Shown here one piece after another: positions 10,201 to 60,010 of a stretch of 64,000 nucleotides of DNA. The DNA comes from Salvia splendens (lineage: Eukaryota; Streptophyta; Magnoliopsida; Lamiales; Lamiaceae), in the NCBI RefSeq assembly GCF_004379255.2, contig NC_056037.1, positions 38,351,012-38,415,011 on the forward strand, in the 5' to 3' direction. A model generated the notes under the pieces. That model made no database searches and was not told the origin of the DNA. It saw only the letters and a program-made list of their open reading frames with translations. Made by a program: the position numbers and the translations under genes. The number at the start of each line of letters is the position of its first letter. Within the stretch, counting starts at the first letter, position 1.

Positions 10201-13200
10201 TTTGTATGTTTCTCATTTGCCTTGATGCCATAACACTAATATCAACTCAATGAGCTTAAGGAAATAACTTCTTCCTAGACTACTCTTTCAGATTCAATCA
10301 TTGGAAATAGCAGTTGAAGGTGAAAACTTTGTGGGGATGCCATTTGTTCTTTTGTGTGGTGGAAACTGGATAAAAAACAGCGGATCCGACTTTTATGTTG
10401 AGTTCAAAACTAGGCCTGCGAAAGTTAAAAAGGTATGAATAACCTTTCTTGATTTTCATTGTATATCTGTCTCCGTATAACATTGACTATTCCAAATGTT
10501 TATTTTGTGGCAAAAGGATGCAGGAAATGGGGAGGGAACATCAAAGTTTTTGTTAGATAAAATAGCAGAGTTGGAAAGTGAAGCCCAGAAGTCATTTATG
10601 CATAGGTGATAAATCTACTTGCATCTCTAAACTCATGATGAGATTTCTTACTAGCAATTTCATTCTTCATTTCCCTTATATCCGAGCTTCTATTGATATT
10701 TGAATTAATTTTTTATTGATATTTGAATTAATTTTTTTGGCTTAGCGGGGATGATACAGTATGTGGTGTGTAGCATGTAAATCCTACCGATACTAAAATT
10801 CCTGCTTTGAATTTAATATTATTATGACAACTTTGATTCGTGGAAGTCTTGGGCTTTGACTTGTCAACTGGAGCTATGCAAACTGACTAATATAAAAACT
10901 CTTCAAAAACTGTTTCTTTAATTTTGCATCTATACTTTAAATTTGCCTCGTTTTTTTAAAAAAAAAATAAAAAAAATTCTAGAACTTTTCTTAGTTCTTT
11001 AACTATGTCAAGTTTCCACTTCAAATTTAAAACATCACTTGTACATTCAAGATACAGGACAGACGTTGTATTGTAGCCTTTTGTTCTTGAGGAAAAATGG
11101 AAAATAAATTATAAGTGGAGATTCCACTCAATGTACCTTATGCATATTAGTATTAGGATATAATTTACTATGTTACTTGTGTTAACACATGATGTTTCCT
11201 ACAGATTTAATATTGCAGCAGACTTGATGGAACAAGCGACTAGTGCAGGTGAAGTAGGTCTTGCCGGCATTCTTGTGTGGATGAGATATATGGCAACAAG
11301 ACAACTCATTTGGAACAAAAATTACAACGTAAAACCACGGTATGATTCCTAAAACGCAGCTGCAATTGTTTTTATGGGTGGGTTTCTCGTTCATGGAAAT
11401 CTGGGTCCCCTCCTTTCTGTGGTCCTTGGATAGGGTATCCTATGAATTTCCCAAGCTCTTAGGCCCTTCTTGGTATGATGGAATGGAATGGGATTATTCC
11501 TATTTTCATTATACTCATGTTCTTGGCACGATGGAATGCGGGAGGGAATGGAATGAAAATGTAAAGGAAATGCAAAAAAAATGTCATTTCATTTTTATCT
11601 TCATTCCATTCCATCATATCAAGAAGGGCCTTAGTTTCTGAACGTATTTGGTTCTGGGTCATTTGCTCTTTTGAGGAAGTCGAATGAAAGAGCCTCCACA
11701 ATGGATAGTGGGGGATATGTTCTCCACACGTCTGTTTTTCTTCTAACTCTTGTCATTTTTCAGTTTAATTGGAATATAAATTCTTGTCTTGGTGCAGAGA
11801 GATAAGTAAAGCTCAAGACAGACTAACGGATTTGCTCCAGAATGTCTACAAAAGTTATCCTCAGTATCGTGAAATCCTACGCATGATTATGGCAACTGTC
11901 GGTCGTGGAGGTGAAGGGGATGTGGGGCAACGAATTAGGGACGAAATATTAGTCATTCAGGTAGTTTTCATAAGCATGCCCTTACCCACTAATTTTCTTT
12001 TGGTGGATATATGCATTTGATAATGCTTTATAAGTTATTATTTAACTGCAGAGAAAGAATGATTGCAAAGGGGGACTGATGGAAGAATGGCATCAAAAGC
12101 TTCATAATAACACTAGTCCTGATGATGTTGTAATCTGTCAGGTATTCAGGATATATAAGTAGACAATCATTTGGCTGATCAAAATACACACACTCATGTG
12201 CATGTATAGAAGTTTCAACTAATAGTTTTACTCACATGCTCCTTATCACAGGCATTGATGGACTATATCAAGAGTGATTTTGACATTATTGTTTATTGGA
12301 AAACCTTAAATGATAATGGAATTACAAAAGAGCGCCTCCTTAGTTACGACCGTGCAATACGCTCTGAACCTAAGTTTAGGGGGGATCAAAAGGATGGACT
12401 TCTGCGTGATCTTGGACATTACATGCGAACATTGAAGGTTAGAGATTTTGTCACATCTGCATGACCTTATAACTGCTTCTTTGTATGTGTCTGAGTCATT
12501 CAAAGTGAATACATGCAAGTATAAAACTCAAATTGCTTAAACCTTTTCATTCCACTTAAAAAGACTTGGTAAGTTTAGTTCATTTCTTAGCAGTATTGTA
12601 ACAACTCCTTAACTTCCAAAATTCTACTGTACTGCTGTGCAGGCAGTTCATTCAGGTGCAGATCTTGAGGCTGCCATCGCAAATTGCTTGGGATACAAAG
12701 ATGAGGTAATTCCATCATGGTAATTCATTATCAGCTAATGTCATTCCTCCTGCATTTCTTCTAAGTTGTAATTGATGCACATCAGGGACAAGGTTTCATG
12801 GTTGGAGTGCAGATAAATCCTGTCGAAGGCTTGCCAGCAGGATTTCCGGTAGTTCCATTTTTTCAATATGTAACGATCCTTAGCATAGCGAAATTCTGAA
12901 ACGTTTTGCCAAATATTTCTAATTATGATAACAGGAATTACTCCAATTTGTTATGAACCACATTGAAGATAGAAATGTTGAAGCCCTGCTTGAGGTATAC
13001 CCAGTTATGATGATAATTCCCCTTTCAATCTTGGAGAAACAATAATTTGACGACCCTTTTACTGCATTCATGGTAATTATGCTTTTCCACTCAGGGATTG
13101 CTTGAGGCTCGTCAGGAGCTTAGATCATTGCTTTCCCAGTCTAATAGCCGCTTAAAGGATATTTTATTCCTGGATATTGCCCTAGACTCTGCAGTTAGAA

Positions 13201-16200
13201 CGGCTGTAGAACGTGGATATGAGGAGCTAAATAATGCTAGCCCTGAGGTATCATATAAACTTTATTATTGGTCTTCAATAATCCCTTTTCATGCAAACTC
13301 CCTCTTCTTTATTATAATTTGACTTGAGTTGCAACACTTAATGCAAATTCTGCAGAAAATTATGTACTTCATTTCCCTTGTTGCTGAGAACCTAGCACTT
13401 TCCATGAGTGATAATGAAGATCTCCTTTATTGCTTAAAGGTGAGGAGCAATGGAACAAAAGTGCCAGTTGTTTTTTCGTACTTTATATTTATGATCCAAT
13501 TTTTCTTCATAAGCATCATATTTGGGTCCTTATAAACACATGTACATGAATTTGGAGCTTTTTAGTTAATATTGCCCGTGGAACTTTCAGAAGCCCCATA
13601 CCTTTTGTCCTTATGGTTCGCATCTTCAATGTTGGATCTTTCTTTGTTAATGCATTTTCTAGTTGATGGGAGATTTTGTTAAATTTTGCTGATCTTTTTC
13701 TTGTTGATGGGGGATTTTGTTAATTTTGCTGATTTTAATTTTCTTCTCATAATAAGGGGTGGAATTTAAGCCGGAGCATGTTCAAGAGCAGGGATGAGCA
13801 CTGGGCATTGTTTGCCAAATCAGTTCTTGACAGAACTCGGCTTTCACTTGCAAGCAAGGCCGAGGCATACCATCAATTACTGCAACCATCGGCAGAGTAT
13901 CTTGGCACACTGCTTGGGGTGGATCAGGGGGCTGTACGTATACATTGACACTTGTGTAGTCCTTTTGGTGCCTACCCAATTACAACTCATAACTAACATT
14001 GTAAATATTTCATGCAGGTTGATATATTTACTGAAGAAATAATTCGGGCTGGTTCAGCAGCTTCACTGTCCTCCCTTCTCAACCGACTTGATCCAGTTCT
14101 TCGACAAACTGCTAATCTAGGAAGGTCATCAAATTTAGTAGCTCACCAGAACATAAACTTTATAAATCTGCATCTATCCAGTTACAATCATTTTCTCAAG
14201 AACTTTTAAACCAGGGTGACCCTGTAACCTGTTTACTAAGTCAGACGAGGAATGCCATTTCTGACATCTGTTGAAAATGTACAATTATAGTTGTTGAATT
14301 AGAATTAGTAGCTTACTAACGTGTATCCCATATTCTGCTACAGTTGGCAGGTCATCAGTCCAGTTGAAGTTGTTGGATACGTCGTTGTAGTTGATCAATT
14401 GCTTTCTGTTCAGAATAAGTCTTACTCAACACCTACTATATTGGTTGCAAAATCTGTTAAAGGAGAGGAAGAAATTCCTGATGGTGCTGTAGCAGTACTG
14501 ACACCTGACATGCCTGATGTTCTGTCGCATGTTTCTGTTCGAGCCAGGAACAGTAAGGTTGTATTTCTGTTGCTGTTTAGTTGTTCAGTGCGATATTTGG
14601 CTCACAATGTCCCTCTGTAGCTCCACCATGAGTTCTCTTCTTTTTCGTAGGTTTGTTTTGCCACTTGCTTTGATCCCAATATATTGACTGACATCGAGGC
14701 ACGTGAAGGAAAGTTGTTGAGCTTAAAACCTACATCTGCAGATGTGGTATACAGGTAATTCAGGATAATCCAAGTTTACTGTTCATGTTCATTAACATCA
14801 CAGATGTCAGGGACACTTGAGTTATCTTTTGCTTCTTTTCTTTCTTCACATTTGCAAATAATCTTAGACCCAGAAAACTTGCACTTTATGATTTTGTGAA
14901 GACCGAAGTTGATGCCTTCTTAATTTTACGTCTTTACTGTAGTGAGATGAAAGATGATGGGCTAGTAAGTTCCGCTAACTCAAATGAAGCTTCATCTACT
15001 CCTTCTTTGTCGTTGGAGAGAAAGCAATTCTCTGGAAGATATGCAATCTCATCTGAGGAATTTACAAATGAACTGGTCAGCCTTTTACATTTACTTCATT
15101 ATTTCATGTTCTCAATCTATTTAAAGTTCTAGGAGAATTATTATGCCCATTGAATAATCAGCTATAAACTAAACTTATACAAAATGCATGATTTGAATTT
15201 GTCCAGGTTGGGGCCAAATCACGCAATATCGCACACCTAAAAGGGAAAGTTCCATCATGGGTTAACATTCCAACTTCTGTTGCTTTACCATTTGGTACTT
15301 TCGAAGCAGTCCTTTCAGATAATTTAAATCAGGTTATACTCTTTGGTAGATGCACCCTTGCATGCATCTCCATTTTGTACACATTGCCCATCATCTTATA
15401 CTTTAAATTCATTTATCTGTATGTCTGGGGTTGCAATTGTTCCCATTTTCTACATTGTGGCTTGAATTTCTCTTAGGAATAGTTTTTCTGTAGAGATTTA
15501 TTTAGTCAAGAGAAAAATTAGTATTTCTTTTATAGGGTCTCTTTTGACACTTACTGGAATTTAAATTTCTTCAACGAACTATGATCTTACAAGTTGAAAG
15601 TGTTTCGGTGCACTTTAGATGGTAAAAGCTTCGGCGGCATTTACTCTAATAGCTTTGTGGATTAAATCCTGTGAAGAATGATTGGCACTACTATGGTATA
15701 TCCCCTTTTAGTTCAGGGCACATGGGGGGTATACATCTGTGTAGCAGAGTTTCTTATGAACTGAAATCCCTGACGACGACACATTTGATAATGTGAACAT
15801 AACTGCTTAACAATCTCTTGATTTTTTTTATCTGGAACTCTGCAGGTTGTGGTAGAAAAATTGCTAGTCCAGAAAAAAAAGTTATACGAGGGACAGTCCA
15901 GTTTCCTTGGTGAGTTACGGAACACAGTGTTGGAACTTTCAGCACCACCACAGCTGGTAAGTCCCCTTTTAGTGCCACCACTTTTTGCTGACTAGGCATT
16001 TTCCCATTTCTTAAATTGAGCAGATTTACACTTTTCTTTCCAATAGTTTCCATACATAATTTGCCTTATATGTTGATGGTCACGCCTCAAGAGTAGATTA
16101 TAACTAACATATTAAGTTACAACATGAGACTAAGATGAAGAGTATAGCCCGAAATTGGCAGTGTTGAGAAAGTGAATCACTTCAGATGCCCCATAGTTTA

Positions 16201-17844
16201 CTTGAGAAACCTTGTCTCAGATTAAAGAGCTCAAGGAGAAGATGCAAAGTTCTGGTATGCCGTGGCCCGGGGATGAAGGTGCAGAGAGATGGGAACAAGC
16301 ATGGATGGCCATAAAGAAGGTAAGCCTAGAGATAGGCATCCATACTTGCATGTTTTATGGAAACGTTGCCATCTTTTGATGGTCATTGATTAAAGAACAA
16401 CTGATCTTTACATCAGCCAAATGTTTAATTTTCTGCATTTCTAGGTATGGGCCTCAAAGTGGAATGAGAGGGCATACTTCAGTACAAGAAAAGTGAAGCT
16501 TGATCATGACTGTCTTTGCATGGCTGTCCTAGTTCAAGAAATAATAAGTGCTGATTACGCATTTGTTATCCATACTACTAACCCATCTTCTGGGGATTCA
16601 TCAGAAATATATGCTGAGGTAATAATATATGCTGTACTTTGTTTATACTTTATGAACTGTTAAAAAGTTTTGATTAGCGTGGCAAGGGATACTTTGTAAA
16701 CACACAAGAAATATCAACGTACATGAGAGACACCATAGCTGAATAATTATAAAAGAAGGGATTCAATTACTAGATTGCCTCCTGCCTCCCACACCCTCAG
16801 TAAGGCCACAATTATCTCCTCCACCCCCTCCTCCACCCCCAACAAATGCATTCTCCTTATATTTGCATTTGAAAGTAAACTTTTACTGATCAAAGAATTA
16901 TGTGTCAAAAAGCACGGGCACACTCAGGAGTGGCAAGTCTAGTACACCCCAATCTATGTCTATAACCTCAGGTGACAAGCTAGACACGAAACTGGTATAT
17001 CATCACCTACCTAAAATCAAAATCTATAGTTAAACTAAACAACCTATATCTTTTCATATATAATTTTTCTGTGCTGGTCCATTTCTTGGGGTTTAGCTCC
17101 AACTTAAAGAATGAGGAAATAAGAAGGTTTTTCGTGCCTGTTGAAGATCTCCAGACTCATGTAGCTGTGTGGCATTTAATTATCTAATAAGGGTTATCAC
17201 CTTCCTATGCATTTCTCATGAATAGGTTGTCAAGGGGCTTGGGGAGACACTGGTGGGGGCTTATCCAGGTCGTGCACTGAGCTTTATTTGCAAGAAAAAT
17301 GACCTCAAATCTCCTCAGGTAAGTTATGAAACTGAGGAGGCTTGCAGCACATCTGGATGTGTCATGTCCTTTCGACATTAACACATATGTTCCTATTGAC
17401 TGCTGATAAGTTTGTCCTTATGCTTTATCCTTCCAGATATTGGGTTACCCCAGCAAACCTATTGGCCTTTTTATTAGAAGATCTATAATTTTCCGGTCAG
17501 ATTCTAATGGCGAAGATCTAGAAGGTTATGCTGGTGCTGGGCTTTATGACAGGTAAAGTTGTATGAAAGATGCTCTTCTCTAATGTCACAGAATCTTTGG
17601 AATATAACCAAGCCTTGAACTTGATGGTGATTCTTGCAGTGTCCCAATGGACGAAGAGGATCAAGTGGTGCTTGATTACTCGTCTGATGCATTAATGGTT
17701 GATGGCGACTTTCGTCATTCAATTCTCTCTAGCATAGCTATTGCAGGAAATGCCATAGAGGAACTCTATGGATCCCCCCAAGATATTGAAGGCGTTGTCA
17801 AGGATGGAAAAATATACGTAGTCCAAACAAGACCACAGATGTGA
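7279..17844 (+). CDS. GWD1: Alpha-glucan, water dikinase 1 (starch-phosphorylating R1/SEX1)
   Basis: The enzyme transfers the beta-phosphate of ATP to C6 of glucose in amylopectin inside plastids, opening starch granules for degradation. I join 32 coding exons: 7279-7548, 8031-8069, 8188-8297, 8388-8466, 8577-8668, 8748-8901, 9321-9743, 9830-9937, 10087-10185, 10292-10432, 10517-10605, 11205-11339, 11798-11960, 12052-12141, 12252-12437, 12643-12705, 12786-12848, 12935-12994, 13095-13247, 13356-13439, 13757-13933, 14018-14124, 14344-14557, 14651-14754, 14943-15075, 15207-15332, 15846-15956, 16221-16319, 16445-16618, 17226-17318, 17437-17552, 17640-17844. This gives 1419 residues with every phase agreeing. 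Landmarks are a plastid transit peptide, two CBM45-like starch-binding modules (LHWGAIKK; LHWALSK), the phosphohistidine motif LSHVSVRARN (His about 1024) and a C-terminal nucleotide-binding domain ending QTRPQM. It is about 45 residues shorter than potato R1 because one N-terminal repeat is absent. Confidence 0.95.
11462..11630. mobile_element. Tourist-like (PIF/Harbinger) MITE in GWD1 intron 12
   Basis: The termini GGCCCTTCTTGGTATGATGG and the inverted copy ending CAAGAAGGGCC match over about 28 bp. TTA is duplicated on both sides (11459-11461 and 11631-11633). The element is 169 bp long and non-coding. The TTA duplication points to a Harbinger-class transposase. It lies within the intron between exons 12 and 13 and does not touch a splice site. 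Confidence 0.75.
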
Positions 17845-18464
17845 TCACATTTCCTGGATTCCAACTGTTTTCGGGGATGGAAACGACCTAGTACATTAAA
17901 AAAAGACCCGCAACGAGCAACATCTACTATAATGGCAATGAAGAATCAGGTAGCGGTAGTTTATATCAACTGTCAATATATACGTATGCAACAGGTAGTT
18001 CATATTCAAGTTATTCTGCATTCTAAACGTTGTATCAATAATACATACACTCTATTTATAATAATGATAATAATAAGCATTTTATCATTGACAGTGTATA
18101 AATGTTTCATTTTTTCTGGTGAAATACCTCTACTTGCATCAGCATCGTGCTGGGTTTACTGATTTAGTGTGATGGTCGTTTGTAATCTACTTAATTTGGA
18201 AATATCTATTTCAGTTTGTATTTATGTTTAAACAATTTAGCTGACACACTACGACTACGTTGTGCAAGCATGCATTAACTAAAACTGACATAATTATTAT
18301 GTCAACTACGTATCTTAATTACATGTTTGTACATTTGGAATTGGCAGTGGTGATCTAGATTGAACACCTGGATAGGAAAAAAAGTAGAGAATGAACTGCG
18401 GTATCTTCTTAGATAGGCTAATTAATTTCTTGTGTAAATCATGTAATCTAGAGAGAGATTGTTC
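17845..18464. other. GWD1 3' region and convergent intergenic spacer
   Basis: AT-rich sequence after the GWD1 stop, presumably its 3'UTR, with no ORF of interest. Its right part is repeated at about 27230-28050 as part of the segmental duplication. No clear poly(A) signal stands out. Confidence 0.6.
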
Positions 18465-19943
18465 TCATCTGCCACTGAAAACTCCACTGAAAATTTTGCT
18501 GCCCCCTCCAAGTGATGCCTCCCATTCAATTGATGACATTCTGATTCGAGCTAATGCTACGACAACCTCGCGCATCTCTGGCCTGTCTACTGCCTCTTCA
18601 CTTAGACACCATTCTGCAATTTCAGCCATCTGCACCCACCATTTTCTTATACCATCACTCATCGAGTATATATACTTCATTTTCTATATACGCTACCTAC
18701 CTACCTTGTATACGTCTTCTCCAGGATAATTGTCTTTCACATTTCCATCTACCATTACTTGCAACGCCGAAGCTGCATCTTCTTCATTGAACATATTTTT
18801 TACCTGATCACTATAAATAAGTCTTTTTTTAACTGCTCTACTTACTTTTATTCAACAATATATATGCATCATAATTAAACTTACTACTGTGATCAAGGAC
18901 TTCATCTTATTTGGCTCTTGGTTGTCCCGGATGAGTGCACGTTTCCCGGTTATAAGCTCTGCAAGAACTACTCCAAATGCAAACACATTTGTCTTAGTAG
19001 TCACTTGCATCTCTTTCACAGACCTGCAAGAAATCATTTACTTTGATATGCTGCTAATCAGCTAATGTAATGATGATTCACCACAATTGGACTTACTCAG
19101 GTGGAAGGTATCCTGACGTCCCAACAAGCCGGGTTGCTATAAATTCATCTTCATTGCTTCTACCAACAAGCTTTGCTAAACCAAAATCTGCAACCTGCAG
19201 ATATTCTGAATCATGATTGCTCCAAAAATCAATGTCAGATGATCAATTGTAACTAGGTACTCCACATACCTTTGCTCTAAGCCCTTCATCTAGCAGGATA
19301 TTGGTAGTTTTTATATCGCGATGCACATATTGAGATTTTGTGTGGTCATTGGATGCACTCTATACCCCTTGCAGCATCAAGTGCGATCTGGGTTCTTGCA
19401 CTCCACGAGAGAGGCTGATGACCTATGATATAAGCATTTCTTTTCAGTTTATACGCACAAAGAAAGTCTAGTGTTAATATGGCTTTTCTAGTTTTGAATA
19501 CCTTTCAATGGATCATGAAGATGGTAACCAAGAGAGCCATTCGGGATATACACATAAACCAAGTAGAGGTTGTCATCACCAGTGGCATAACCCATCAGCT
19601 CCACCTATATTCTTGATAAATTGTTATGGCCTCTCAATGTTACAGTAATTCTCAGGTGATGGAAAATTTCTCTTACCACATCATTGTGTGTTATTTTGCA
19701 CAACACTTTGATCTCAGCAAGGAATTCCTTGGAGTTGTTGGACCTCATTTTCTTGATTGCAACTTCCTGATTCATGTCAATGATAGTAGTGACTAGTCAA
19801 GATTCTTGATGAATATTTGGGGGACTAAATAGTACTACTACCTTCTCTCCGATCACATCGTGGTATACACTTCCATATCCCCCCCGCCCAATTATTCTAG
19901 TCTCTTCAAAGTCACCTGTGGCCTCTGCAATCTCCTCAATACT
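18465..19943 (-). pseudogene. LysM receptor kinase (LYK3-like), truncated kinase-only copy
   Basis: Eight kinase exons align with those of the intact gene at 28051-30552: 18465-18629, 18705-18803, 18888-19023, 19097-19194, 19270-19422, 19502-19604, 19677-19766 and 19842-19943 (all complement). The catalytic-loop exon is one base longer (153 against 152 nt). The extra T near 19350 shifts the frame just before HRDIK and meets a stop at once. Another exon has lost 3 nt in frame. The extracellular LysM region, transmembrane segment and first part of the kinase are absent: homology ends abruptly at 19943, where a dispersed repeat begins. There is no possible function as a receptor. It is the decayed partner of the intact gene. 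Confidence 0.9.
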
Positions 19944-20035
19944 TGTATTCAACCTCAATCTAAGCCATAAATAAGTACATTAAACGTAATGTCATTTTAA
20001 GTCCAAACGCATTTGTGCCTAACTTTTACTATATA
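19944..20035. repeat. Dispersed repeat at the duplication breakpoint (copy 1)
   Basis: The sequence begins TGTATTCAAC, continues 'ctcaatctaagccataaata' and then 'aagtccaaacgcatttgtgc'. It recurs nearly unchanged at 61146-61255 and in part at 63275-63357. It starts exactly where homology to the LysM receptor kinase ends. I cannot assign it to a named family. Confidence 0.75.
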
Positions 20036-21100
20036 GTGTAACACCAGTGCTATGCACGGTTTTTAATATTCATTTAAAATTTTGAATAATTAAGCAATAT
20101 CTACATTTAATTTCTCATTTTCCATTTTTCTAATACCCATTTATTGAAGAATACACTTTAAAATTTTAAAATATTAAGCAACATCTAAATTAATTTCTCT
20201 AACACTATGTTACATACACGTGCAAGTTAATAAAACATAAAATAATATGAACACTTTGATATATTAAACAATACTACATATAAAAATCATATTAATCATA
20301 ATTATTAGTTGAAATAAAAATATTTGCTGATAAATAAATTTCTACATAAAATTAAAATACTCTGCAAAGTAATCTCTTATAATTTCAAATGATTATTGCT
20401 ATAATGAGTTTATGAAAAATAGTAAAATTCCAATATTTACAAATCTTTATCACCGTAATTATCATGTAATGTCATTATGCATTTATTTAAATATTACAAA
20501 TTTAAGTTTTAATAGTACACAATTAACATGAAAATTGTCAATAAATTATTATTTTTTATATTAAAGAACACTATTTAGAATAGAAATAGAAAATAAAAGA
20601 AAAGTTAAATTCATGAGATAAAGAAATCCTTTCAACTTTCTAATTTATTAGTACTCCTTATCTTCGTATCGAAGATGACCCACTTTCTTTTGATTTGTCC
20701 CAATTAAGATAACTGATTACTAAAAAGAAAACACATTTTTTCTACTTTATTTTCTTTCTTACTTTATTCTCTCCACTTCACATACAAAATAAATTTACAT
20801 AAATTTTCGTGCCGTCCAAGAAACGGATTATCTTCCTTAGGACGGAAGGAGAAGTATTTTTGTTTAAACACTTTTTTATATATATGTCTCATACATTGTT
20901 GATTAAAAAACTAAAAGAAGAAACGACGTACTTCTTAAGCACAACAAATTAATTGGGCGTCAAAGCATTAGTTGGGCTTTGAATATTGGTTTTTAACTCA
21001 ACCATGTTAAGATAAATACTATACAACCCAATAAATATTATACAAACCAAATTTAATTTTCACCGCCACATTTTTATCAGCCGCTGCGCTGCTTCTTCAT
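20036..21100. other. AT-rich intergenic sequence
   Basis: Strongly AT-rich with no coding signal on either strand. It contains one Stowaway-like MITE at 20652-20856 and otherwise nothing I can name. Confidence 0.6.
20652..20856. mobile_element. Stowaway-type MITE (diverged)
   Basis: The left end TACTCCTTATCTTCGTATCG pairs imperfectly with the right end ATCTTCCTTAGGACGGAAGG, followed by AGTA. Length is about 205 bp, AT-rich interior, no ORF. It is more diverged than the other copies in the window. Confidence 0.55.
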
Positions 21101-22311
21101 CCCTCGCACTCTCTTCTCAAATTCTCTAATTCCCATCACTCGTCGGATCTTCGCTAATGATGCATCTTCTTCTTCTTGACAGCGTGGAGTCACCCAGTAG
21201 ACCGCTGTTTCGCCCGGTCTGACTCGATTCTCGGTGAGAAATCTCAATACCTGGATAAAGTTCTTTTCTGTGTTGAGCTTTGCTTTTCCATAATTTTCAC
21301 ATATATATAGAAGATTCTAAGTTGTAACTGTACATATGATAATTTTATGCATTCCACAAACTTTGGTGGAGTATAAAATTATTTCAATTTTTAGCATATG
21401 AACAACCTTCATCCGTTTCACATAGCCCAATTTTTAGCAACTCAATGCTTTGAGTACCTTATATGACTCTAAGCCTATTCTTATTCCATGAGAGTCATTT
21501 TTAAGACATTCAATCAAGTTTATTTTAAGGCATTCAAATTGTTACTATTATGAATTTAGCAGTTATTCTGCACAAGCATATTTGCATTGCATATGTTCTT
21601 ATCTGTTCATCTATCTCTATCTTTCTTTAAATGCTCTTCTTTGGAAACTTGCGTGGATTCATATCCGTACAACACCCTTCTAATTAGTTATGTTTGAAAA
21701 GCTTAAATCTTTGGCTCCAGTCATGTAATATAAGAAACAGCTGCATTGTGAAGGCTCTTGCGATTCGTTGCTTGGGCGTTTTTTCTTGAAAATATTGCAT
21801 TACGGATCCGCAGCTAAAATTCTCTATATGAGGTTTGAGCAAATTTTACAGCTGTTATAACTTCTGTAGTTCAGTCATCTGTAACTAATATTCATTCGTG
21901 TGGTGCACCTAAAGTTTGCTGCGATTATTGGCTTTTGCTAAGAAGATCTAATATAGAGATTGTGCTTCAAGGCTGATGTGTATATATCGTTTGAGTGTTG
22001 AAAATTGTTCTTGTTTTTGTTTTCAGGAATCATATGTTAATAATGACATAATTGTAATTATTTCAGATCAATCGCATCTGTATGCTGAAATATCATTAAA
22101 GGATGTATGCTTCATGATATAATTTGTAATCAAGCAAGCGAGTTTGGTTATCCTAAGATCTTTAACATGTCGGGATCATATTGTGAGGGCATGCAGTTTG
22201 TTCCATATGAGATAATACTTGGGTTGTTAAATATATCTAGCATTACAAGTACATAAATTGTGTTTCAGGTGGTCCTTGTCATTTCCACTGATATAGTACC
22301 AATTTTCAAGA

Positions 22312-23337
22312 ATGACTGATGGTTCCAAAGATAGAATGGCCATTTCAAATACTTATGGTAAATAACTGCAGTGTGATAGTCTAGCACTAAGAAGGTTTTG
22401 ATACTCATCTTAGTATGCTGATTTTGAAATTTAATATGGTTTTTAGTGGCAGATATTGAATTGACTCAGTTTCAAAATTTCTGAGATATTATTGGTGTAA
22501 CTTTGCACTCATATTGAAATCATGTACTCCCTCCGTCCCAACTGAGTTGATTCATTTTTTTTGGCAAAAAGCAAACATCTAATCCCTCTTACTCTATCCC
22601 CTCTCCTACTTTACTCTCTCTTATCTCTCCTACATTATTCTCACTCCTATTTTATTAACCCATTTAACACAATTTCTTAATCTCCGTGCACAAAAGAAAT
22701 GCCTCAACTTAGTTGGGATGGAGGGAGTATTATAATCTAGCTATAAACTTCTGTTTGACATCTATGTTGCTGAATATGATATGAAGATGTATCTCTGTCT
22801 CGTTTGCTAAATATTTACAATCAGTTCTTGTCTACTTAATTATCCACAACATCAACATCTTGATTTGAATAACATATTTTTGTTTCCTGGGCATGCTCTG
22901 ATCAGCAAGCAATTTTTAATTTGGATTTTAACTTGATGCAAGTGGCATTATAATGTTTCACCAGCCTCCACTACTGTGTTTTATGCTTTCCTCTAAATCT
23001 TGGTTCATCATTATGTTTTTTGTCTTTCATGTGCTGTAGGCTGCTTCACGAGATTTTGTGCTAGATTGTCATTGTTAATAGATGAACTGGAATGCTGTGA
23101 TACAGCATGGGGTATTTATTTCGTCTGTGGAGAGCTTAGTGGAGCATTCTCGAAATCTCACTTTTCTCTATGATTCTATTAATTTTTTACTGTGCAACAT
23201 ATGTCTTACAAAGTGAGTGCTGGAGAACTTATGTTAACCAAATTGCAGAAGTGGTACTGCGTACACTTAGTCTCTAACATGCTCTGTTTTGTGATATAGG
23301 CTTGTGGAGACGAAAGTACTGGCAGCTTTTTCATTGA
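22312..23337 (+). CDS. Possible three-exon gene for a 51-residue protein
   Basis: The exons are 22312-22357, 23040-23111 and 23300-23337. Both introns are GT-AG and phase 1, and the joined frame is open to a TGA. The predicted protein is rich in Cys, Leu and Trp, containing CFTRFCARLSLLIDELECC and ending WRRKYWQLFH. Upstream, an acceptor (GTTTCAG ending 22268) and a leader-like exon near 21110-21233 (ending CTCG|GTGAGA) suggest a transcript with at least one 5'UTR intron. I do not recognise the family. The stop is only 164 bp before the PPR start, so this could also be the spliced leader of the PPR transcript with the frame acting as an upstream ORF. Confidence 0.35.
22525..22729. mobile_element. 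Stowaway-type MITE
   Basis: TACTCCCTCCGTCCCAACTG at the left pairs with the right end, which reads CTTAGTTGGGATGGAGGG and then AGTA. The termini are inverted over about 20 bp and the interior is CT- and AT-rich. The element lies in the first intron of the possible small-protein gene. Confidence 0.8.
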
Positions 23338-23501
23338 CTTCTGGAGTTGCACTTTCTGAGGAATAAGTTCTTGAAGACTATCTGGACTTTCTGAGGTTTC
23401 TGCTTCAAGCTTCACTTCTTCACGAGGTTCCTTCTTCAAGCTTCTCCTTCGTTACCGTATTTCTCTTCCCTTGTATATATTCGTAGCTCCTCCCACCCTC
23501 A

Positions 23502-25832
23502 ATGTTTGTATTCACACTCCCGAAGCTCCACAAACATCTCCATTCATCTAACTCGATTGTCGATTCGCTATCGAGTTACCTTACCAAACACATTGACTCT
23601 TTCCTTACTACCGATTACTTGGACCAGAAGACCCTTCTATCTGCCCATGCTGCTATCATAACAACCGGTAACGCACACAATAAATTTATCGCATCAAAGC
23701 TGATAGCATATTATGCGTCCCTCAAACAGTCCCATAATTCAACCAAAGTATTTGATTCCCTCACTTTTACAGACCACTTTCTTTGGAACTCCATCATCAA
23801 AGCCCATTTTTCTAATGGGGACCATGTGCAAGCCATTAACTTCTTCTCCAAGATGAGGTTTGCTGGCATTTTGCCTACACAATTTACCATACCAATGGTT
23901 GTTTCTGCTTGTGCTGAACTTCAATCGCTTTCTATTGGCATGAAATTTCATGGATTAATCTCAAAATTGAATCTTTTCGATGGAAACTCTGCTGTTGGTG
24001 CTTCATTCGTGTATATGTATTCGAAATGTGGAACTATGGACTATGCATCTCTTATGTTTGATGAAACTACTGTTAAAGATGTGGTTGTTTGGACTGCACT
24101 TGTGATAGGGCACGTGCAGAATGGCGAGAGTGAGAAAGGTTTTCACTGTCTTTGTGAGATGCATAGAACTGGTGGCAATAGTGAGAAGCTGAATTTCCGA
24201 ACATTAGAAGGGGGTTTCCAAGCTTGTGGAAACTTGTGTGCTTTGGTTGAAGGTAGGTGCTTGCATGTGCTGGCTCTAAAATCAGGAATTGTATCCTCAA
24301 ATGTGGTTCAGTCTGCCATTTTGTCAATGTATTCCAAGTGTGGTAGTGTTGAGGATGCACGTATGTCTTTTTCTGAAGTTGTAGATAAGGATCTATTATC
24401 ATGGACATCAGTCATGGGTGTCTTTTCAAGGTTGGGGTGCATTGTTGAATGCTTTGATATATTTTTGAGGATGCAAGCTACTGGTTTACATCCTGATGGA
24501 ATGGCAATTAGTTGTTTGGTTTCTGGTTTTGCTAATTCATTGAGAGTCTCTGAAGGAAAGGCACTCCATAGTTTTATTATAAGGAGGAATTATATGATTG
24601 ATGAGAAGGTACACATTTCGTTATTGTCAATGTACTGTAAGTTTGGCCTCGTGGATCTTGCTGAGAAGATTTTTATTCAATGCCGCGATCAGGTAAAAGA
24701 TTCTTGGAGTCTAATGGTGTCTAGCTATGAAAAGGTAGGATTAGATAAGAAATGTATAATGCTCTTTGGACAAATGCAACATCAAGGGATTAAACCTGAT
24801 ATATCCAGTCTATTATCAGTAATTTCTTCCTGCTCAAGATTGGGAGCCATCTGTTTTGCTCGTTCTATACATTGCTGTATGATGAAAACAATGATGCTTG
24901 AGAAGGTCACAATTGTTAATTCACTGATAAACATGTATGGGAAATGTAGTAAGTTGAATGAAGCAGAAAGGTTACTCAATCACACATCACATGACATTAC
25001 TACATGGAACTCTCTTATCTCATCTTACATTGACAATGGTAATTGTCTCAAGGCTATAGCTCTTTTCGATGTAATGATTACGAGAGGCTTAAAGCCTAAC
25101 AAAGCAACACTAGCTGTTTTGTTGTCTGCTTGTGCTCAGATTGCATCTCTTGAAAAGGGGAAAAAAGTTCATGATTATATCATAGAAGCTGGATTTGGCT
25201 GTGAAGTTTCTGTTGCTACATCGTTGGTTGATATGTATGCCAAATGTGGACAAATTGATATGGCAAAAGAAATTTTTAACTCACTAAGTGATAGGGATAT
25301 CATATGTTGGAATGTAATGATTTTCTGTTATGGTATGCATGGATATGGAAAATCTGCAGTTGAGATGTTCCAACGAATGAAAGAATCTGATGTTAGACCA
25401 AATGACCTAACATTTCTAGCAGTACTCTCTGCATGTGTTCATGCTGGATTAGTTGATGAGGGCAAGTCAATCTTCCACAAAATGAAGGAATATTCTATTG
25501 CACCCACACTAAAGCACTATGCATGTATGGTGGATCTTTATGGGCGATCTGGTTATCTGGATGAGGCCGAGGCTCTTGTTTTATCGATGCCGTTTACCCC
25601 TGATGGGGGCATATGGGGTTCTCTGCTAAATTCTTGTAAATTACATAATAATGTTGCAATGGGTATGAAGATAGCAAACCATGCTATTGAAGCTGACCCA
25701 GAAAATGATGGGTATTACATATTGGTCTCAGACTTTTATGGCTCTATGGGCATGTGGGAAGATGTAGGGCAAGTGAGGAAAAAGATGAAGGATAGAGGGG
25801 TAAGAAAAACTGTGGGTTGGAGTGCTGCATAA
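23502..25832 (+). CDS. Pentatricopeptide repeat protein, PLS class, E subgroup
   Basis: A single uninterrupted frame of 776 residues, typical of intronless plant PPR genes. It consists of tandem PPR motifs of 31-36 residues from about residue 50, with recurring signatures such as SALIDMYSKCG-like blocks (ILSMYSKCGSVEDA, LVDMYAKCGQIDMA) and PLS spacing. The C-terminus has an E-type extension (ADPENDGYYILVSDFYGSMG) and ends GVRKTVGWSAA without a DYW deaminase domain. Such proteins bind organellar RNA in a sequence-specific way, often for editing or splicing. The N-terminus could be a mitochondrial presequence. From memory it is closest to Arabidopsis At4g39952, which I offer only as a hint. The start is the first ATG of the frame, after a TATATA-containing stretch. 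Confidence 0.9.
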   Translation: MFVFTLPKLHKHLHSSNSIVDSLSSYLTKHIDSFLTTDYLDQKTLLSAHAAIITTGNAHNKFIASKLIAYYASLKQSHNSTKVFDSLTFTDHFLWNSIIKAHFSNGDHVQAINFFSKMRFAGILPTQFTIPMVVSACAELQSLSIGMKFHGLISKLNLFDGNSAVGASFVYMYSKCGTMDYASLMFDETTVKDVVVWTALVIGHVQNGESEKGFHCLCEMHRTGGNSEKLNFRTLEGGFQACGNLCALVEGRCLHVLALKSGIVSSNVVQSAILSMYSKCGSVEDARMSFSEVVDKDLLSWTSVMGVFSRLGCIVECFDIFLRMQATGLHPDGMAISCLVSGFANSLRVSEGKALHSFIIRRNYMIDEKVHISLLSMYCKFGLVDLAEKIFIQCRDQVKDSWSLMVSSYEKVGLDKKCIMLFGQMQHQGIKPDISSLLSVISSCSRLGAICFARSIHCCMMKTMMLEKVTIVNSLINMYGKCSKLNEAERLLNHTSHDITTWNSLISSYIDNGNCLKAIALFDVMITRGLKPNKATLAVLLSACAQIASLEKGKKVHDYIIEAGFGCEVSVATSLVDMYAKCGQIDMAKEIFNSLSDRDIICWNVMIFCYGMHGYGKSAVEMFQRMKESDVRPNDLTFLAVLSACVHAGLVDEGKSIFHKMKEYSIAPTLKHYACMVDLYGRSGYLDEAEALVLSMPFTPDGGIWGSLLNSCKLHNNVAMGMKIANHAIEADPENDGYYILVSDFYGSMGMWEDVGQVRKKMKDRGVRKTVGWSAA

Positions 25833-26384
25833 ACCGGCAGAATGACCACAACATGTGGTCTGTCAAGTAATCGGACCATAAAGATATTAGAATATCAAGA
25901 AACGAATTAAAGTCTCTCTTTTACATTTTATTTGTAAATGGCAGCCAGCTGTGCTTTGGTTGGATTAAGGAAGGTAATAAGATACACATTTGAATTCCTA
26001 ACTTCACTTCTGGTAGCTGAAGCATGATGCTCATGCTAACTCTATATATTGAGTGGTGTCCTCTCTTTTGACTTAAATTAGCTAATTCCTTTCTCATTAA
26101 GATATTACTTTGTTATGCAGTGATCAGGACAACATTTTTTATGTTGATTGGTGCATCATTTTTCCTTGCAAAGGATGTACCTGTCGTGAAAAGAGTTCCA
26201 GAGAAGGTGATGAGGTCAATGGATAAACCACTATATAACATGACTGTTCCTCGAGAATCAGTACATGACTACTAAGTACTATCTGGAGCAAGTATTGCCT
26301 ATTCTATTGTGGAGACGTGTAAGAGGAGAAGTTTATGCAATAATCAGTCATTAATTTAGAAAAAATGCTGGTGTATGTTTCTAA
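25833..26384. other. Spacer between the PPR gene and the GWD1 fragment
   Basis: It contains an exon-like open stretch. A GT donor near 25975 and an acceptor TTATGCAG at 26120 would join into a frame that ends at 26275. From the internal ATG at 26141 it encodes 44 residues with a hydrophobic start (MLIGASFFLAKDVPVV) and an end PRESVHDY. No family is recognised. It could be PPR 3'UTR sequence or a gene relic. Confidence 0.3.
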
Positions 26385-27215
26385 TCTCTTGATTTTCCAT
26401 TTTTATCTGGAACTCTGCAGGTTGTGGCAGAAAAATTGCTAGTCCTGAAAAAAAAGTTACACGGACACTCCAGTTTCCTTGGTGCGATACGGAACACAGT
26501 TTTGGAACTTTCAGCACCACCACAGCTGGTAAGTCCCCTTTTAGTGCCACCACTTTTTGCTAACTAGGCATTTTCCTCTTTCCAATAGTTTCTGTACATA
26601 ATTGGCGTTATATGTTGATGGCCACACCTCAAGAGTAGATTATAGCTAACATATTAAGTTACTACATGAAACTAAGATTAAAACTATACCCCAAAATTAG
26701 CAGTGTTGAGAAAGTGAATCATTTCAGATGCCCCATAGTTTACTTGAGAAACCTTGTCTCAGATTAAAGCGCTCAAGGAGAAGATGCAAGTTCTGGCATG
26801 CCGTGGCCCGGGGATGAAGGTGCAGAGAGATGGGAACAAGCATGGATGGCCATAAAGAAGGTAAGCCTATAGATAGGCATCCATACTTGCATGTTTTATG
26901 GAAACGTTGCCATCTTTTGATAACCATTGATTCAAGAACAACTGATCTTTACATCAGCCAAATGTTTACTTTTCTGCATTTCTAGGTGTGGGCATCAAAG
27001 TGGAACGAGAGGGCATACTTCAGTACAAGAAAAGTGAAGCTTGATTATGACTGTCTTTGCATGGCTGTCATAGTTCAAGAAATAATAAATGCTGATTATG
27101 CATTCGTTATCCATACTACTAACCCATCTTCTGGGGATTCATCAGAAATATATGCTGAGGTAATAATATATGCTATACTTTGTTTATACTTTATGAACTG
27201 GTAAAAAGTGTTGAT
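26385..27215 (+). pseudogene. GWD1 fragment (exons 27-29), broken
   Basis: Three exons match GWD1 exons 27, 28 and 29: 26421-26528, 26763-26860 and 26986-27159. The first has lost 3 nt in frame (108 against 111 nt). The second has lost one A in 'atgcaag' against 'atgcaaag', which shifts the frame. The third is intact and nearly identical (VWASKWNERAYFSTRKVKLD). Intron sequence is also conserved. Exons 1-26 are absent upstream. Exons 30-32 are missing because the sequence jumps, near 27210, from GWD1 intron 29 to a point matching about 17995 in the left copy. No product is expected. Confidence 0.9.
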
Positions 27216-29545
27216 TAGCGTTGCATGCCACAAGTAGTTCATATTCAAGTTATTCTGTATATGTTTCTTCTAAACGCTGTATCATTAATACATACTTTAT
27301 TTATAATAACTTAATAAGCATTGTTATTATTGACAGAGTGTATAAATGTTTTTTTTTTCTTTTTCTGGTGAAATACCTCTACATTCACATCACATGCCAT
27401 TTATCTTTTCCAATCCTCGTTATTACTTATACACAGTAAATGTTTCGTTTGATTATTTTTGAAGTAGGTATATTATTTAATTAGCATCTGTATTGTTAAT
27501 CATTCAAAAACACCCTGAGATAGAAATGATTAATGTTTCTTTTATTCCGAACTTTATTTCAGTAGTCTTAGTTTCCTACAAATAATATAACTTCACAAAA
27601 ATTAATTGTGACCAATCCCACAAAACTATATATGCTGGTAATACAACAATTGTTTGAAGAAGAAATAAACATTGTTAAATTTGTACATTTTTCTTTCCCA
27701 TTTCGTACAAAGAAAATATTACTAGAAGATAATTAAAGAAAATATTTCTTTCCCAGTTTGTAATCTACTTGCGAAATATGTATTTATCTTTAAACAATTT
27801 ACGCTGACACACTACGTTGTGCAAGCATGCAAGTCTGCATTAACTAAAACTGACATAATGCACTCTTACATGCTTGCTTGTGAAAATAGCTAAATGTTTC
27901 AACTATCTTACATGTTTGTACATTTGGAATTGGCAGTGGATCTCTAGATTCAACACCTGGATAGAAAAAAAGGAAGGACTGCTGCAGTATCTTCTTACAT
28001 AGGCTAATTAATTTCTTGTCTAAATCATGTAATCTAGAGAGAGATTGTTCTCATCTTCCACTGAAAACTCCACTGAAAATTTGGCTGCTCCCTCCAAGTG
28101 ATGCCTCCCATTCAATTGATGACATTCTGATTCGAGCTAATGCTATGACAACCTCGCGCATCTCTGGCCTGTCTACAGCCTCTTCACTTAGACACCATTG
28201 TGCAATTTCACCCATCTGCACCCACCATTCACAACCCTCTTAATCTTATACCATCACTCATATATTTTCTATGTACTCTACCTTGTATACGTCTTCTCGA
28301 GGATAATTGTCTTTCAGATTTCCATCTACCAGTACTTGCAACGCCGAAGCTGCATCTTCTTCATTGAAGATATTATTTACCTGATCAAACTCATCTAACA
28401 CCATAAATAAATATGGTCTTTTTTTACTACTATTCAACAATATGCATCATAAACTTTGTTCACTTACTACTGTGATCAAGGACTTCATCTTATTTGGCTC
28501 TTGGTTGTCTCGGATGAGTGCACGTTGGCCGGTTATAAGCTCTGCAAGAACTACTCCAAATGCAAACACATCAGTCTTAGTAGTCACTTGCATCTCTTTC
28601 ACAGACCTGCAAGAAATCATTTACTTTGATATGCTTCTAATCAGCTAATGTAATGATGGTTCACCACAATTGGACTTACTCAGGTGGAAGGTATCCTGGC
28701 GTTCCAACAAGCCGGGTTGCTATAAATTCATCTTCATTGCTTCTACCAACAAGCTTTGCTAAACCAAAATCTGCAACCTGCAGATATTCTGAATCATGAT
28801 TGCTCCAAAAATCAATATCAGATGATCAATTATAACTAGGTACTCCACATACCTTTGCTCTAAGCCCTTCATCTAGCAGGATATTGGTAGTTTTTATATC
28901 GCGATGCACATATTGAGATTTTGTGTGGTCATGGATGTACTCTATACCCCTTGCAGCATCAAGTGCGATCTGGGTTCTTGCGCTCCACGAGAGAGGCTGA
29001 TGACCTAATTAATTCATAGCCTATGATATAAGCATTTCTTTGCAGTTTATACGCACAAAGTGTAGTGTTTCTTTGAATACCTTTCATCAATGGATCATGA
29101 AGATGGTCACTAAGAGAGCCATTCGGGATATACACATAAACCAAGTAGAGGTGGTCATTACCAGTGGCATAACCCATCAGCTCCACCTATATTCTTGATA
29201 AATTGTAATGGCCTCTCAATATTACAGTAATTCTCAGGTGATGGAAAATTTCTCTTACCACATTATTGTGATGTATTTTGCACAACACTTTGATCTCAGC
29301 AAGGAATTCCTTGGAGTTGTTAGACCTCATTTTCTTGATTGCAACTTCCTGATTCATGTCAATGATAGTAGTGACTAGTCAAGATTCTTGATGAATATTT
29401 GGGGGACTAAATAGTACTACTACCTTCTCTCCTATCACACCGTGGTATACACTTCCATATCCCCCCCGGCCAATTATTCTAGTCTCATCAAAGTCACCTG
29501 TGGCCTCTGCAATCTCCTCAATACTGAAGTAACTTGGTTTCTCTG
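26385..29545. repeat. Right copy of the GWD1-LYK3 segmental duplication
   Basis: Matches 15811-19943 through GWD1 exons 27-29, a deleted interval, the convergent spacer and the kinase exons of the LysM receptor. In this copy the GWD1 part is degenerate and the LYK3 part is functional. About 400 bp of unrelated AT-rich sequence near 27420-27800 is present only here. Confidence 0.9.
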
Positions 29546-30552
29546 ACTCAAAAACTGTGATATCTGTCAGAGATCCAAGCAGATCATTTTAATTTCTCTC
29601 TCTGAGTACTATGTAGAGAAGTGAAATACTCCATCAAATTATAATAGTACTCTGACCTTGTGTTATTTCTTTCTGTGTGTACTGTCTCTGCAAGGAATGT
29701 GCTCTGGCACTTGAGTTTTTGAATGACGATTTTGGATCCTGCCTTCTTTTTCTCCCAACTAGGATTATGGCCAAGGTGCATACTGAGAGTAAGGTTACAG
29801 CTGACAATATCCCAATGAGTAGGATCCATTTGTGTGCCTTTTTTGTCCCTGAAACCAAAAGAATGAGGAATTTATACATGAAATTTCTCAGCTTGTGAAT
29901 GATCATGAAAATGATGCTCACCTTTCTCTGAATTAGGGAGTCCATATTTTTCCATGGGCACATATAAGAGCCAACCTTCTTTTATGAAATCTGGGGTTTT
30001 CAAATATGTGTTTAGTTTCTCAATTCCATCAACTTGAGCAGAAAGTAGATTTGCAATGGAGGAGAGAGTATCAGTTGGCTGAACTGTGTAGGTCACCACA
30101 ACTTGGGACTCAATCTCCACACAGCCACACAAAAGATGCAGAGTTTTATTTTCTCCAACATTTAAACTTGTATTTACTCTGCTACTCCAAACTTGCCCGC
30201 TAAAATTCTGAGTTGATACCTCGTAGAAAATATCACCGTGCTTTGGCTCGTAGACTACATCATAGAAGTATCCTCGAGTTCCATCAACATTCTGGCACAA
30301 GCAGTTTACAGAAACCAAGTAATCTTGCCTATCTGCATATGGTATAGGCTTGATTGCTGATGCATTGACCGAGTATAACGAGGCCACATTATCCACCTGA
30401 TATCCATTGTGCTGGTAAAGAAGAGCACTACATGACTGAATCTTATCTGAACAAGTAAAGGGGTACATCTGTGTTTCAGAAACACAGGTTTTCATGAAGA
30501 AGATTGGGAGGAGGAGGATATGAAAAAGAGGACTACATATCTGAAAATCCAT
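28051..30552 (-). CDS. LysM-domain receptor-like kinase, LYK3 (At1g51940) type
   Basis: Ten exons (complement): 28051-28215, 28282-28380, 28471-28606, 28680-28777, 28853-29004, 29081-29186, 29259-29348, 29424-29563, 29657-29848, 29922-30552. They join to 602 residues with consistent phases. The start at 30552 opens a hydrophobic signal peptide; the frame continues upstream only to a GTG. The ectodomain has the CxC pairs of LysM receptors (CLCQ, CGC) and LysM-like repeats such as [16 protein letters not shown]. One transmembrane segment follows (about 216-240). The kinase has [16 protein letters not shown] (Lys about 325), VHRDIK (Asp about 422) and DFG (about 440), so it looks catalytically competent. 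It ends [11 protein letters not shown]...FSGR like At1g51940. This family senses chitin-like or lipochitin ligands at the plasma membrane or tunes immunity. It converges on the broken GWD1 copy. Confidence 0.93.
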
Positions 30553-32394
30553 GAAAACTTGGCATGCAGGCTTTTGAGAAGAAGATAGCACAAAAGAAAA
30601 GAGTAGTTAAGAGGTATTGGAGATAGCTTTGTTCCTATATGTGAGTATCTATCATTATATACTACTTGTTTGTCTTCTTCATTATGATCAAGTGAATAGT
30701 ATTTTATAGCCTTAGTCTACAGTTGGAGAAGTTGGAAATTTGGTTTTGTTATTACAAATGTATGTCGATTTTCACAAAGACAACATGTCTAGGTAACCTA
30801 TCCTTCTGTCAGTGGACATAGTCTCTAGTTTAGGAGATGAGTTCAATGTTGATAAGGGCAGAATATTAGTAGTCAAAACATTAAAAAAATGTGACTTTGA
30901 CAAGCTAAGTGATTCCTAGTGTATGAAATGCTATGTTTGTTTCAAACATTACACTTTGCTGTAAGTGATGAAGCTCATTGGTCTGTCTAAAGATGCATGC
31001 TTGTCTGATCTCTTACAAATTTGATCCCAGCAGAGGATCTTGAGCTGTGCATATGACTATGAGCTACCAGACGTTGACATCGGCCGGCTGAGTAAACAAT
31101 GATCAGGTCAGGTCAGGTCAGGTATTTCCTGCACATACTATTATAATAATCACTCATTTCTTGATTATTTTACAGTACTATTTTTTATTTTCCTATGAAA
31201 CTTTATATCAAGTCGCTTTAGATTATAGTACTCGTTAATTTGACCCCTTCTCTTTAACGGACTACTAAACCAGACGGCTGATTGATGTATTTAATTTTAC
31301 ATACCAACTTCTTTTCTTCTTATCCCATCATATATATAACTTCGTTTCTCACGAATTCACTTTATGTCATATATAAATCCTTAATTTTCTTATAATCACA
31401 TTCATCGATTCTCATTATATGCACTATAATTAGTTGATGGACTATTAATCAAGGCTTAAAACAGCTTGTTAGTAATGTAATGTCTGGCTAAGAGTAGTGC
31501 AAGTTTGCGAATTGTGAGATTAGATAATGAGATTTATTATGATTAGATTATAGTTCGCCGGCAAAAATATCTTATAAATTTAATAATTTTATCTGACAAT
31601 GATATAGTAGTAGTAGTAGTAGTAGTAGTACATTTTCATCAAAAAGAAAAAAAGGACATGGGCCACTGTTATCCAAATAGTAAAAAACATTATTGCGTGA
31701 TTTTGAACTTGGTCTCTATGGCCCAATACTATAGGCCCGACTCGACTAGTCCAACCACCTACCCACTACAATATTTATTATTTTATCTCTGTATCGAATA
31801 ATTAATTGAAAAGAGTATTTTAACAAGTGGAGTTACTTTAATTATTAGTCACAAAAATTGTGTAGGAGTATATCATAAGCGAGGGAAAGCTAAAAGTAGG
31901 AAGTAGTATTACACAAAAAGGAATAGCTAGTTCAACAAGAATCCCAAATACTACTCCATTTGCCTTTGAGCATCATTTTGAAGATTGATTTCGTGACTGA
32001 TGGTGATGATTGTATGATGAAATTCATATTTTATAAAATTAAATAAGACTTATAATAATGAGCATTAATAAAAAAAAATACAACATGCTTATGTAAAATG
32101 TAAATTATACATGAAAGTAGTAAGAAGTAATACATGTAAGTAACTAGTAAGAACACGACGCAAGTATTTAATATTCACTCAACTTCCCATTTTAAATGAA
32201 GTGGATTCCTAAGATTGATAACTGTCGATCTTTACATTGTAGTTGCCATCAATATACACCAAAAATTCCTCCATACTTGTTCTAAAATGTAGGTTAGAGT
32301 TCACTTCTAACACTTGTCATGCCAGTAAGAATCCTGTACAAAAGTGGTTTCAAAATTTGTCTGGTTGAGTGTGTATCAATATTCACTATATCCT
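30553..32394. other. Intergenic: LYK3 promoter side, AT-rich
   Basis: No coding region is visible. The 150 bp above the LYK3 start contain TATATACT-like boxes. Two microsatellites occur: (AGGTC)n at about 31104-31122 and (TAG)n at 31605-31630. The rest is unremarkable AT-rich sequence. Confidence 0.6.
31605..31630. repeat. (TAG)n microsatellite
   Basis: Uninterrupted TAG triplets over 26 bp in intergenic sequence. Likely length-variable. Confidence 0.85.
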
Positions 32395-33016
32395 TCAATC
32401 TACTGTACACGGCTTTTCGTTTGCTTTCTTGAACTCTTCTCTCAGTAAATTGCGAATTCTCCTTCTCAGACTTGAAGCTTCCTCAGGTCTGAACCATTGC
32501 TTTCCGAACTGATAATGGATAACCAAAAATAAGCATGATGAACCAGAAACATGAAGAAAACTGAAAATATTTGTAAAATGGAAACAAGTACCATATGCAA
32601 GTCCCGCTTTTTCAGGCGCATCACCAATGAATCGTTCTATAAAGAATAGAACAAAAAGACCACAGTCGTATACATTCTGTTGCTGAGGCACCTGTTTCAC
32701 AAGGCAGTTGTGTTAGTTAAATAAACGGGCTTACTGAGAGATGCTGCAATAGCAGGCAGGCCGTCCTACAGTATCTTTGCTTTCATAATTCATATTTGCA
32801 TACATTCAGCAAACTTCACTCTCTTCTCAACGGCTTTAGCTTAACAGTTTTTTTCACATTGGAAAATGATTAAAACACAATTTCTTTCTAAGGAAGAAGT
32901 GTACCTCAATAACTCTGTCTTCAATTCTTCGAGAGAGCTTGTTCCAGATAGGCTCTGCAAAGGGCAGTTGCAGCACTTCTTCTTTTTTCAGAAACTTCCA
33001 CTCTTCTACTAGAAAG
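32395..33016 (-). pseudogene. ULP1/OTS-type SUMO protease, C-terminal fragment
   Basis: Three exons (complement 32905-33016, 32592-32691, 32395-32507) resemble the C-terminal half of the C48 catalytic domain. The blocks are a WxxL...RRIEDRVIE helix, VPQQQNVYDCGLFVLFFIERF with the catalytic Cys in YDCG, and FGKQWFRPEEASSLRRRIR. Between APE and KKRDLH the reading frame jumps, consistent with loss of about 8 nt, so the second and third exons do not join in frame. The upstream exons carrying the catalytic His and Asp (the HLDSL block) are not found before 33300. It is therefore a truncated, frameshifted copy of a desumoylating protease gene, unless an unusual splice rescues it. Confidence 0.75.
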
Positions 33017-59974: not shown

Positions 59975-60010
59975 ACTCTGGAGCCAGCGGAGACGCAAAT
60001 CGAGGAATTA

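Follow-up and report, generated by a model that had tools for sequence, protein, structure and literature searches.

Partial duplication of the GWD1-LYK3 neighbourhood in Salvia splendens and its possible origin in homoeologue-templated repair

On contig C6 of tetraploid Salvia splendens, GWD1 and LYK3 are each present as one complete gene and one fragment, which raises the question of whether this arrangement arose by local duplication or from another subgenome. We analyzed a window of 64,000 nucleotides (C6:38351012-38415011 of NCBI contig NC_056037.1), which contains no N letters, and searched the genome of 806 Mb in 1,162 contigs. With a probability of roughly 0.55, the comparisons favour a history in which a break in the native LYK3 was repaired by copying in about 8 kb of a block of the type found on the homoeologue C5. 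LYK3 would then be a C6/C5 mosaic, and a PPR gene would have been brought to C6 along with the patch.

Structure of the duplication

Comparison of the window with itself by BLAST recovered three colinear blocks of an extended direct repeat, spanning 15812-19943 and 26383-29525 overall. This confirms an earlier note on this DNA, which had proposed that the GWD1-LYK3 neighbourhood is doubled and had named a self-comparison as a check. Block 1 (15812-16684 and 26383-27225) is 90.7% identical (E = 0), block 2 (17986-18133 and 27225-27382) 79.9% (E = 2.7e-33), and block 3 (18217-19943 and 27779-29525) 87.7% (E = 0), with ungapped differences of 0.052, 0.077, and 0.041, respectively. Only parts of the two genes are doubled. 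Homology stops in exon 3 of LYK3 at one end and in a GWD1 intron at the other, the latter being clearest on the homoeologue. The result is a partial tandem duplication, direct and colinear with both ends within genes, which comprises the GWD1 3' end, intergenic DNA, and the LYK3 3' part; about 6.4 kb of composite DNA separates the copies. The features of the two units are as follows.

6535-6653, plus strand: GWD1 promoter stretch, also on C5 and there joined to the intron of a trehalose-phosphate-synthase (TPS) gene (alignment of C6, C3, C4a, and C5)
7279-17844, plus strand: GWD1, complete, 32 exons in the splice model (splice model; Pfam PF22973, PF23166, PF01326)
15812-16684, plus strand: duplicated GWD1 3' piece, left copy (90.7% to 26383-27225)
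17986-18133, no strand: duplicated DNA downstream of GWD1, left copy (79.9% to 27225-27382)
18465-19943, minus strand: LYK3 kinase fragment, pseudogene; homology stops in the exon 3 equivalent
26383-27225, plus strand: GWD1 fragment, right copy, three exons, pseudogene (90.7% to the left copy; 1-bp deletion)
27779-29525, minus strand: duplicated LYK3 3' part, right copy; homology with the left copy ends at 29525 (self-BLAST)
28051-30552, minus strand: LYK3, complete, 10 exons, 603 amino acids (splice model, Pfam, database match)

Pfam domains and splice models agree with the gene identities and the convergent order given in the earlier note, as well as with its description of the two units. 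In the left unit, the 32-exon model of GWD1 encodes 1,444 amino acids without internal stops and contains phosphohistidine and dikinase domains (PF22973, PF01326, PF23166); one acceptor is uncertain (14874 or 14943), and the protein may instead have about 1,421 amino acids. The LYK3 fragment next to it is restricted to the kinase; exons 1-2 are missing, as is the 5' part of exon 3, and the reading frame is shifted by a 1-bp insertion alongside other small indels. In the right unit, LYK3 encodes a LysM ectodomain and a kinase (PF01476, PF00069), and its top match is the Salvia divinorum lysM domain receptor-like kinase 3 (95%). The three-exon GWD1 fragment is frameshifted by its 1-bp deletion and lacks an equivalent of 16685-17985, with a single clean junction at 27225. 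Gene models of this region would best label 18465-19943 and 26383-27225 as pseudogene fragments.

The beginning of LYK3 exon 1 and the adjoining upstream DNA (30145-30760) recur at about 72-74% at six loci on six chromosomes, which are 92-97% alike over 2-3 kb. These loci seem to represent a repeat that captured this stretch.

Relationship of the right unit to the homoeologue

A search of the genome with the right GWD1 fragment gave six matches (all six candidates scored): itself, C5 at 95%, the left copy at 91%, and C3 and, twice, C4 at 80%. Over 60 kb of C5, read in window orientation, the upstream flank extends to the equivalent of 6653 and is followed by 21429-26113, which holds a TPS leader and the PPR gene. 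Next comes a piece of GWD1 that corresponds to 15451-17131 and 17506-18133, then LYK3 and the downstream flank. The conserved GWD1 promoter on C5 continues straight into the TPS intron. The promoter (6535-6653 equivalent) now precedes the TPS leader and a broken PPR copy there. GWD1 5' DNA is present once on C6, on C3, and at two places on C4, and was not found on C5 (five of five candidates scored). Every exon of LYK3 is present on C5, but the last exon carries deletions of 2 bp and 12 bp. Three further features of the window enter the comparison.

21429-23386, plus strand: TPS leader, consisting of the first intron and the start of the next exon; on C5 too
23502-25832, plus strand: PPR gene, intact, At4g39952 type, 776 amino acids (open frame 23502-25829; Pfam; relatives)
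29607-29886, no strand: shift in noncoding difference from C5, best placed at 29640 within this interval

A TPS gene at C6:38.42 Mb, about 48 kb downstream, has a leader that aligns with 21429-23386, and from 23393 on the window aligns with a second copy of the PPR gene at C6:38.50 Mb. The PPR gene between the units, which the earlier note had also placed there, has an intact open frame; its type was assigned from the names of relatives, of which some with 776 amino acids are listed in Salvia miltiorrhiza and Perilla. The C5 copy is split over three frames and the second C6 copy is broken too, leaving the window copy as the only intact one of the three found. We dropped the idea that the PPR gene is an unrelated insertion, given the matches to the TPS leader and, from 23393, to the second PPR copy. 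The second copy (C6:38496501-38506500) is split by a long-terminal-repeat retrotransposon whose 2.5-kb repeats differ by 0.1%.

We counted noncoding differences on BLAST-aligned columns; MAFFT alignments over indel-rich noncoding DNA inflated distances (e.g. 0.19 for 17845-18420) and were not used. Between 21429 and 29525, the right unit and C5 differ at 146 of 4357 noncoding positions (0.034), whereas the flanks differ from C5 by 0.085 (145/1701; 29526-33146) and 0.075 (200/2663; 2951-6653). The tract is therefore closer to the homoeologue than its flanks are, as expected of a homoeologous transfer. On the GWD1 side, the noncoding difference is 0.070 both between left and C5 (125/1796) and between left and right (54/775). 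The left-C5 value is indistinguishable from that of the upstream flank (p = 0.53) and distinct from that of the tract (p = 5.5e-10). The best rate change within 21429-33146 was placed at 29640 (interval 29607-29886; reached in none of 500 shuffles), about 0.1 kb from 29525, where left homology ends in LYK3 exon 3. The earlier note had called the duplication fairly recent. That age has to be qualified: on the GWD1 side, left and right are as far apart as the homoeologous flanks, and the right unit and C5 differ by about half as much.

Sites rooted with outside copies group the right unit with C5. In GWD1 (742 columns), eight sites join right and C5, two join left and C5, and none joins left and right. 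In the TPS leader (468 columns), eight sites join right and C5, with one for each alternative, and among rooted PPR residues (741 columns) the counts are five, one, and one. Nucleotide triples of the PPR gene were not used, as their two halves disagree in direction. Such a sister relationship fits both leading models, namely a patch copied from C5 and a duplication older than the C5/C6 split. Right-C5 synonymous divergence (dS) is 0.082 in LYK3 5' of the break, 0.040 in the kinase exons, and 0.040 in the PPR gene, a contrast that points the same way as the noncoding differences.

Homoeologue-templated patching and competing histories

We infer all breaking, copying, and joining steps of the favoured history from the sequence. 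The left unit would be the pair native to C6. On the C5 side, the 5' part of GWD1 would have been exchanged for the TPS leader and PPR gene by a rearrangement in that lineage. Later, the native C6 LYK3 would have broken within exon 3, its 5'-side broken end would have invaded a C5-type LYK3, and about 8 kb would have been copied leftward, comprising the LYK3 3' part, the GWD1 fragment, the PPR gene, and the TPS leader. The far end of the copied tract would then have been joined to the other broken end, at the site of the present repeats. LYK3 would thereby have been restored as a C6/C5 mosaic and its old 3' part stranded as a pseudogene. C6 would also have gained an intact copy of the PPR gene, while that on C5 decayed. 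No match to TPS coding sequence above 68% was found on C5 (all 20 candidates scored), nor a second PPR copy (nine of nine), as would be expected had C5 relocated the two genes and C6 later obtained copies of them. The right border of the low-difference tract (29607-29886) lies near the structural break at 29525; the left border is unexplained. The right end is seamless and the left end abrupt, but the left join is covered by a dispersed repeat. The wider claim, that the apparent local tandem duplication as a whole represents homoeologue-templated repair with about 8 kb of passengers, a LYK3 from two subgenomes, and the only intact PPR copy found carried to C6, has in our view about an even chance of being right.

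Several observations weigh against a patch copied from C5. The copied block starts 32 bp within the C5 TPS segment, which is explained by no model. The stretch 26114-26383 is absent on C5 and the equivalent of 15451-15811 is absent from the right unit, so that later deletions are needed on both sides. A flank at 37860-45996 differs from C5 by 0.057 (414/7204, coding DNA included). The dS contrast between LYK3 5' of the break and the kinase exons is marginal (p = 0.051). Kinase dS (the earlier note had proposed to compare synonymous divergence between exon pairs) is 0.052 for left-right, 0.043 for left-C5, and 0.040 for right-C5, values that do not separate the models; by themselves, synonymous counts do not separate them. 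Over all sites of the LYK3 part, left and right differ by only 0.035, and left and C5 by 0.046. In 819 noncoding LYK3 columns, 38 differences are specific to the left copy, 23 to C5, and two to the right copy. Fifteen of the 23 C5-specific ones fall in 28613-28836, perhaps through left-to-right conversion or a local change on C5. Introns of GWD1 differ between C3 and C4b by 0.050 on average (312/6242), and 400-column windows range from 0.033 to 0.095; the tract lies below this average (p = 5e-5), but it is low rather than unique, since such windows reach 0.033. A shift from gene body to promoter may also lie partly behind the change near 29.6 kb.

Among the alternatives, an older partial tandem duplication before the C5/C6 split survives best, although we consider it unlikely. 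It would have run from a GWD1 intron to LYK3 exon 3, with TPS leader and PPR copies at the junction; on C5, a later deletion reaching from the GWD1 promoter to the TPS leader would have removed the left unit. The rooted sites that join the right unit with C5 agree with such an order of events, the C5 join of GWD1 promoter and TPS intron resembles a deletion end, and some C3-C4 windows are as low as the 0.034 of the tract. However, flanks and left unit should then not share an equal and larger difference from C5, C5 must have lost its native TPS and PPR genes as well, and the model offers no explanation of why the rate changes at the LYK3 break.

The reverse transfer is improbable. Here, the tandem structure would have arisen on C6, and the right block would have been copied to C5, replacing the C5 GWD1. 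This also makes right and C5 sisters that are closer than the flanks. However, the C5 TPS segment is 32 bp longer than that of C6, and the age of the C6 duplication would have to equal the homoeologue split by chance (left-right 0.070; TPS-window 0.059).

The earlier note had interpreted the locus as two complete GWD1-LYK3 pairs with reciprocal loss of one partner from each. Each unit does consist of one complete and one fragmentary gene, yet no remnants of the missing LYK3 exons 1-2 or GWD1 5' exons were detected where they would be expected. No remnant of LYK3 exons 1-2 was found at the left unit in a search with those exons (eight of eight candidates scored), and GWD1 5' DNA was found once on C6 and not on C5 (five of five candidates scored). 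Truncation at the break ends suffices for fragmentary genes, and one event with ends inside both genes needs fewer steps; two full pairs followed by losses are therefore not supported and appear very improbable. Least credible is an assembly chimera of homoeologous sequence: the mean read length of 7.4 kb given in PMC8408255 is shorter than the tract and the right end lacks a visible scar, but the window has no N and, at a difference of 0.02-0.04 from C5, the right block is not misplaced C5 sequence.

Capture by a transposon with terminal inverted repeats was also dropped: no such repeats surround the moved block, and all five inverted pairs of at least 60 nt in the window sit at 56.7-63.3 kb.

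Patching of LYK3 from C5 would have counterparts in known processes. Puchta reportedly described in 1998 the repair of breaks by one-sided invasion followed by end joining. The likeness is that one end would copy a homologous template and the other be joined without homology; the difference is that the process is here deduced from the present DNA, with a homoeologue as template. Homoeologous exchanges are frequent in allopolyploids, and S. splendens is counted among those without known progenitors, according to PMC10772947. As in such exchange or gene conversion, DNA of one subgenome was probably replaced or supplemented on the other, but here native DNA was kept beside the copied tract, giving the look of a tandem duplication. 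Gene movement in plants through filler DNA at repaired breaks, as described in PMC3445842, likewise fills a break with gene fragments copied from elsewhere; unlike it, the right end here is seamless within LYK3. A tandem duplication with break ends in two genes also gives an A-B-B-C order with each edge gene truncated once, but lacks the composite DNA that separates the copies here. We found no description of this locus in literature on tetraploid S. splendens, homoeologous conversion or exchange, and break repair, where the locus and the gene pair were not searched by name. If patching from C5 is true, what looks like a tandem duplication in a polyploid is sometimes an insertion with the homoeologue as its source; dating it by left-right divergence, or taking its gene order as a record of local events, would then mislead. 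The locus would also provide a traceable case of one repair event both damaging and saving genes, as GWD1 is complete here, with no GWD1 5' part found on C5, and the PPR gene is intact only here among the three copies found.

Repeats in the composite DNA and the C3 and C4 copies

The remaining composite DNA contains the following features.

19940-20030, no strand: repeat piece at the left join (matches 61143-61225 and 63273-63317)
20040-21432, no strand: dispersed repeat with a nested short repeat (at least 47 matches listed, the best 40 of 1,359 candidates having been scored)
25994-26357, plus strand: 3' end of a further gene (matches C3:32.24 Mb and C68 at 82% and, in part, C4:29.20 Mb at 83%)

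The segment 21050-21240 was rejected as the PPR gene's own first exon, as it lies inside the dispersed repeat.

GWD1, TPS, and one flank gene share the same regions of C3, C4, and C6; LYK3 and PPR were not detected within the 40 kb fetched around each GWD1 copy on C3 and C4. The dS of GWD1 between window and C3 is 0.28 and thus near the WGD-2 (whole-genome duplication) peak of 0.26, which PMC8408255 gives next to a WGD-1 peak of about 0.08. Judging from the alignment, C3 GWD1 appears free of disabling changes if one exon starts at the 14943 equivalent. Both C4 copies share 20-bp and 1-bp exon deletions.

GWD1 occurs twice on C4 in opposite orientation (6747153-6760863 and near 6.83-6.85 Mb) with 0.4% difference, and TPS and a flank gene are also doubled in this region. 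Either an inverted duplication of large size or doubling in the assembly would account for this. About 2.1 kb past GWD1 differ by only 0.009 between C3:8650886-8653035 and C4:6759509-6761655; the adjoining GWD1 DNA differs by 0.03-0.06, and the second C4 copy lacks this low-difference tract. The C3-like tract in the first C4 copy (C4a) is probably another recent exchange between homoeologues.

Finally, an element at 60010-63272 of the window is bounded by terminal inverted repeats of 278 bp (92%) and contains transposase-like frames; its motif suggests PIF/Harbinger.

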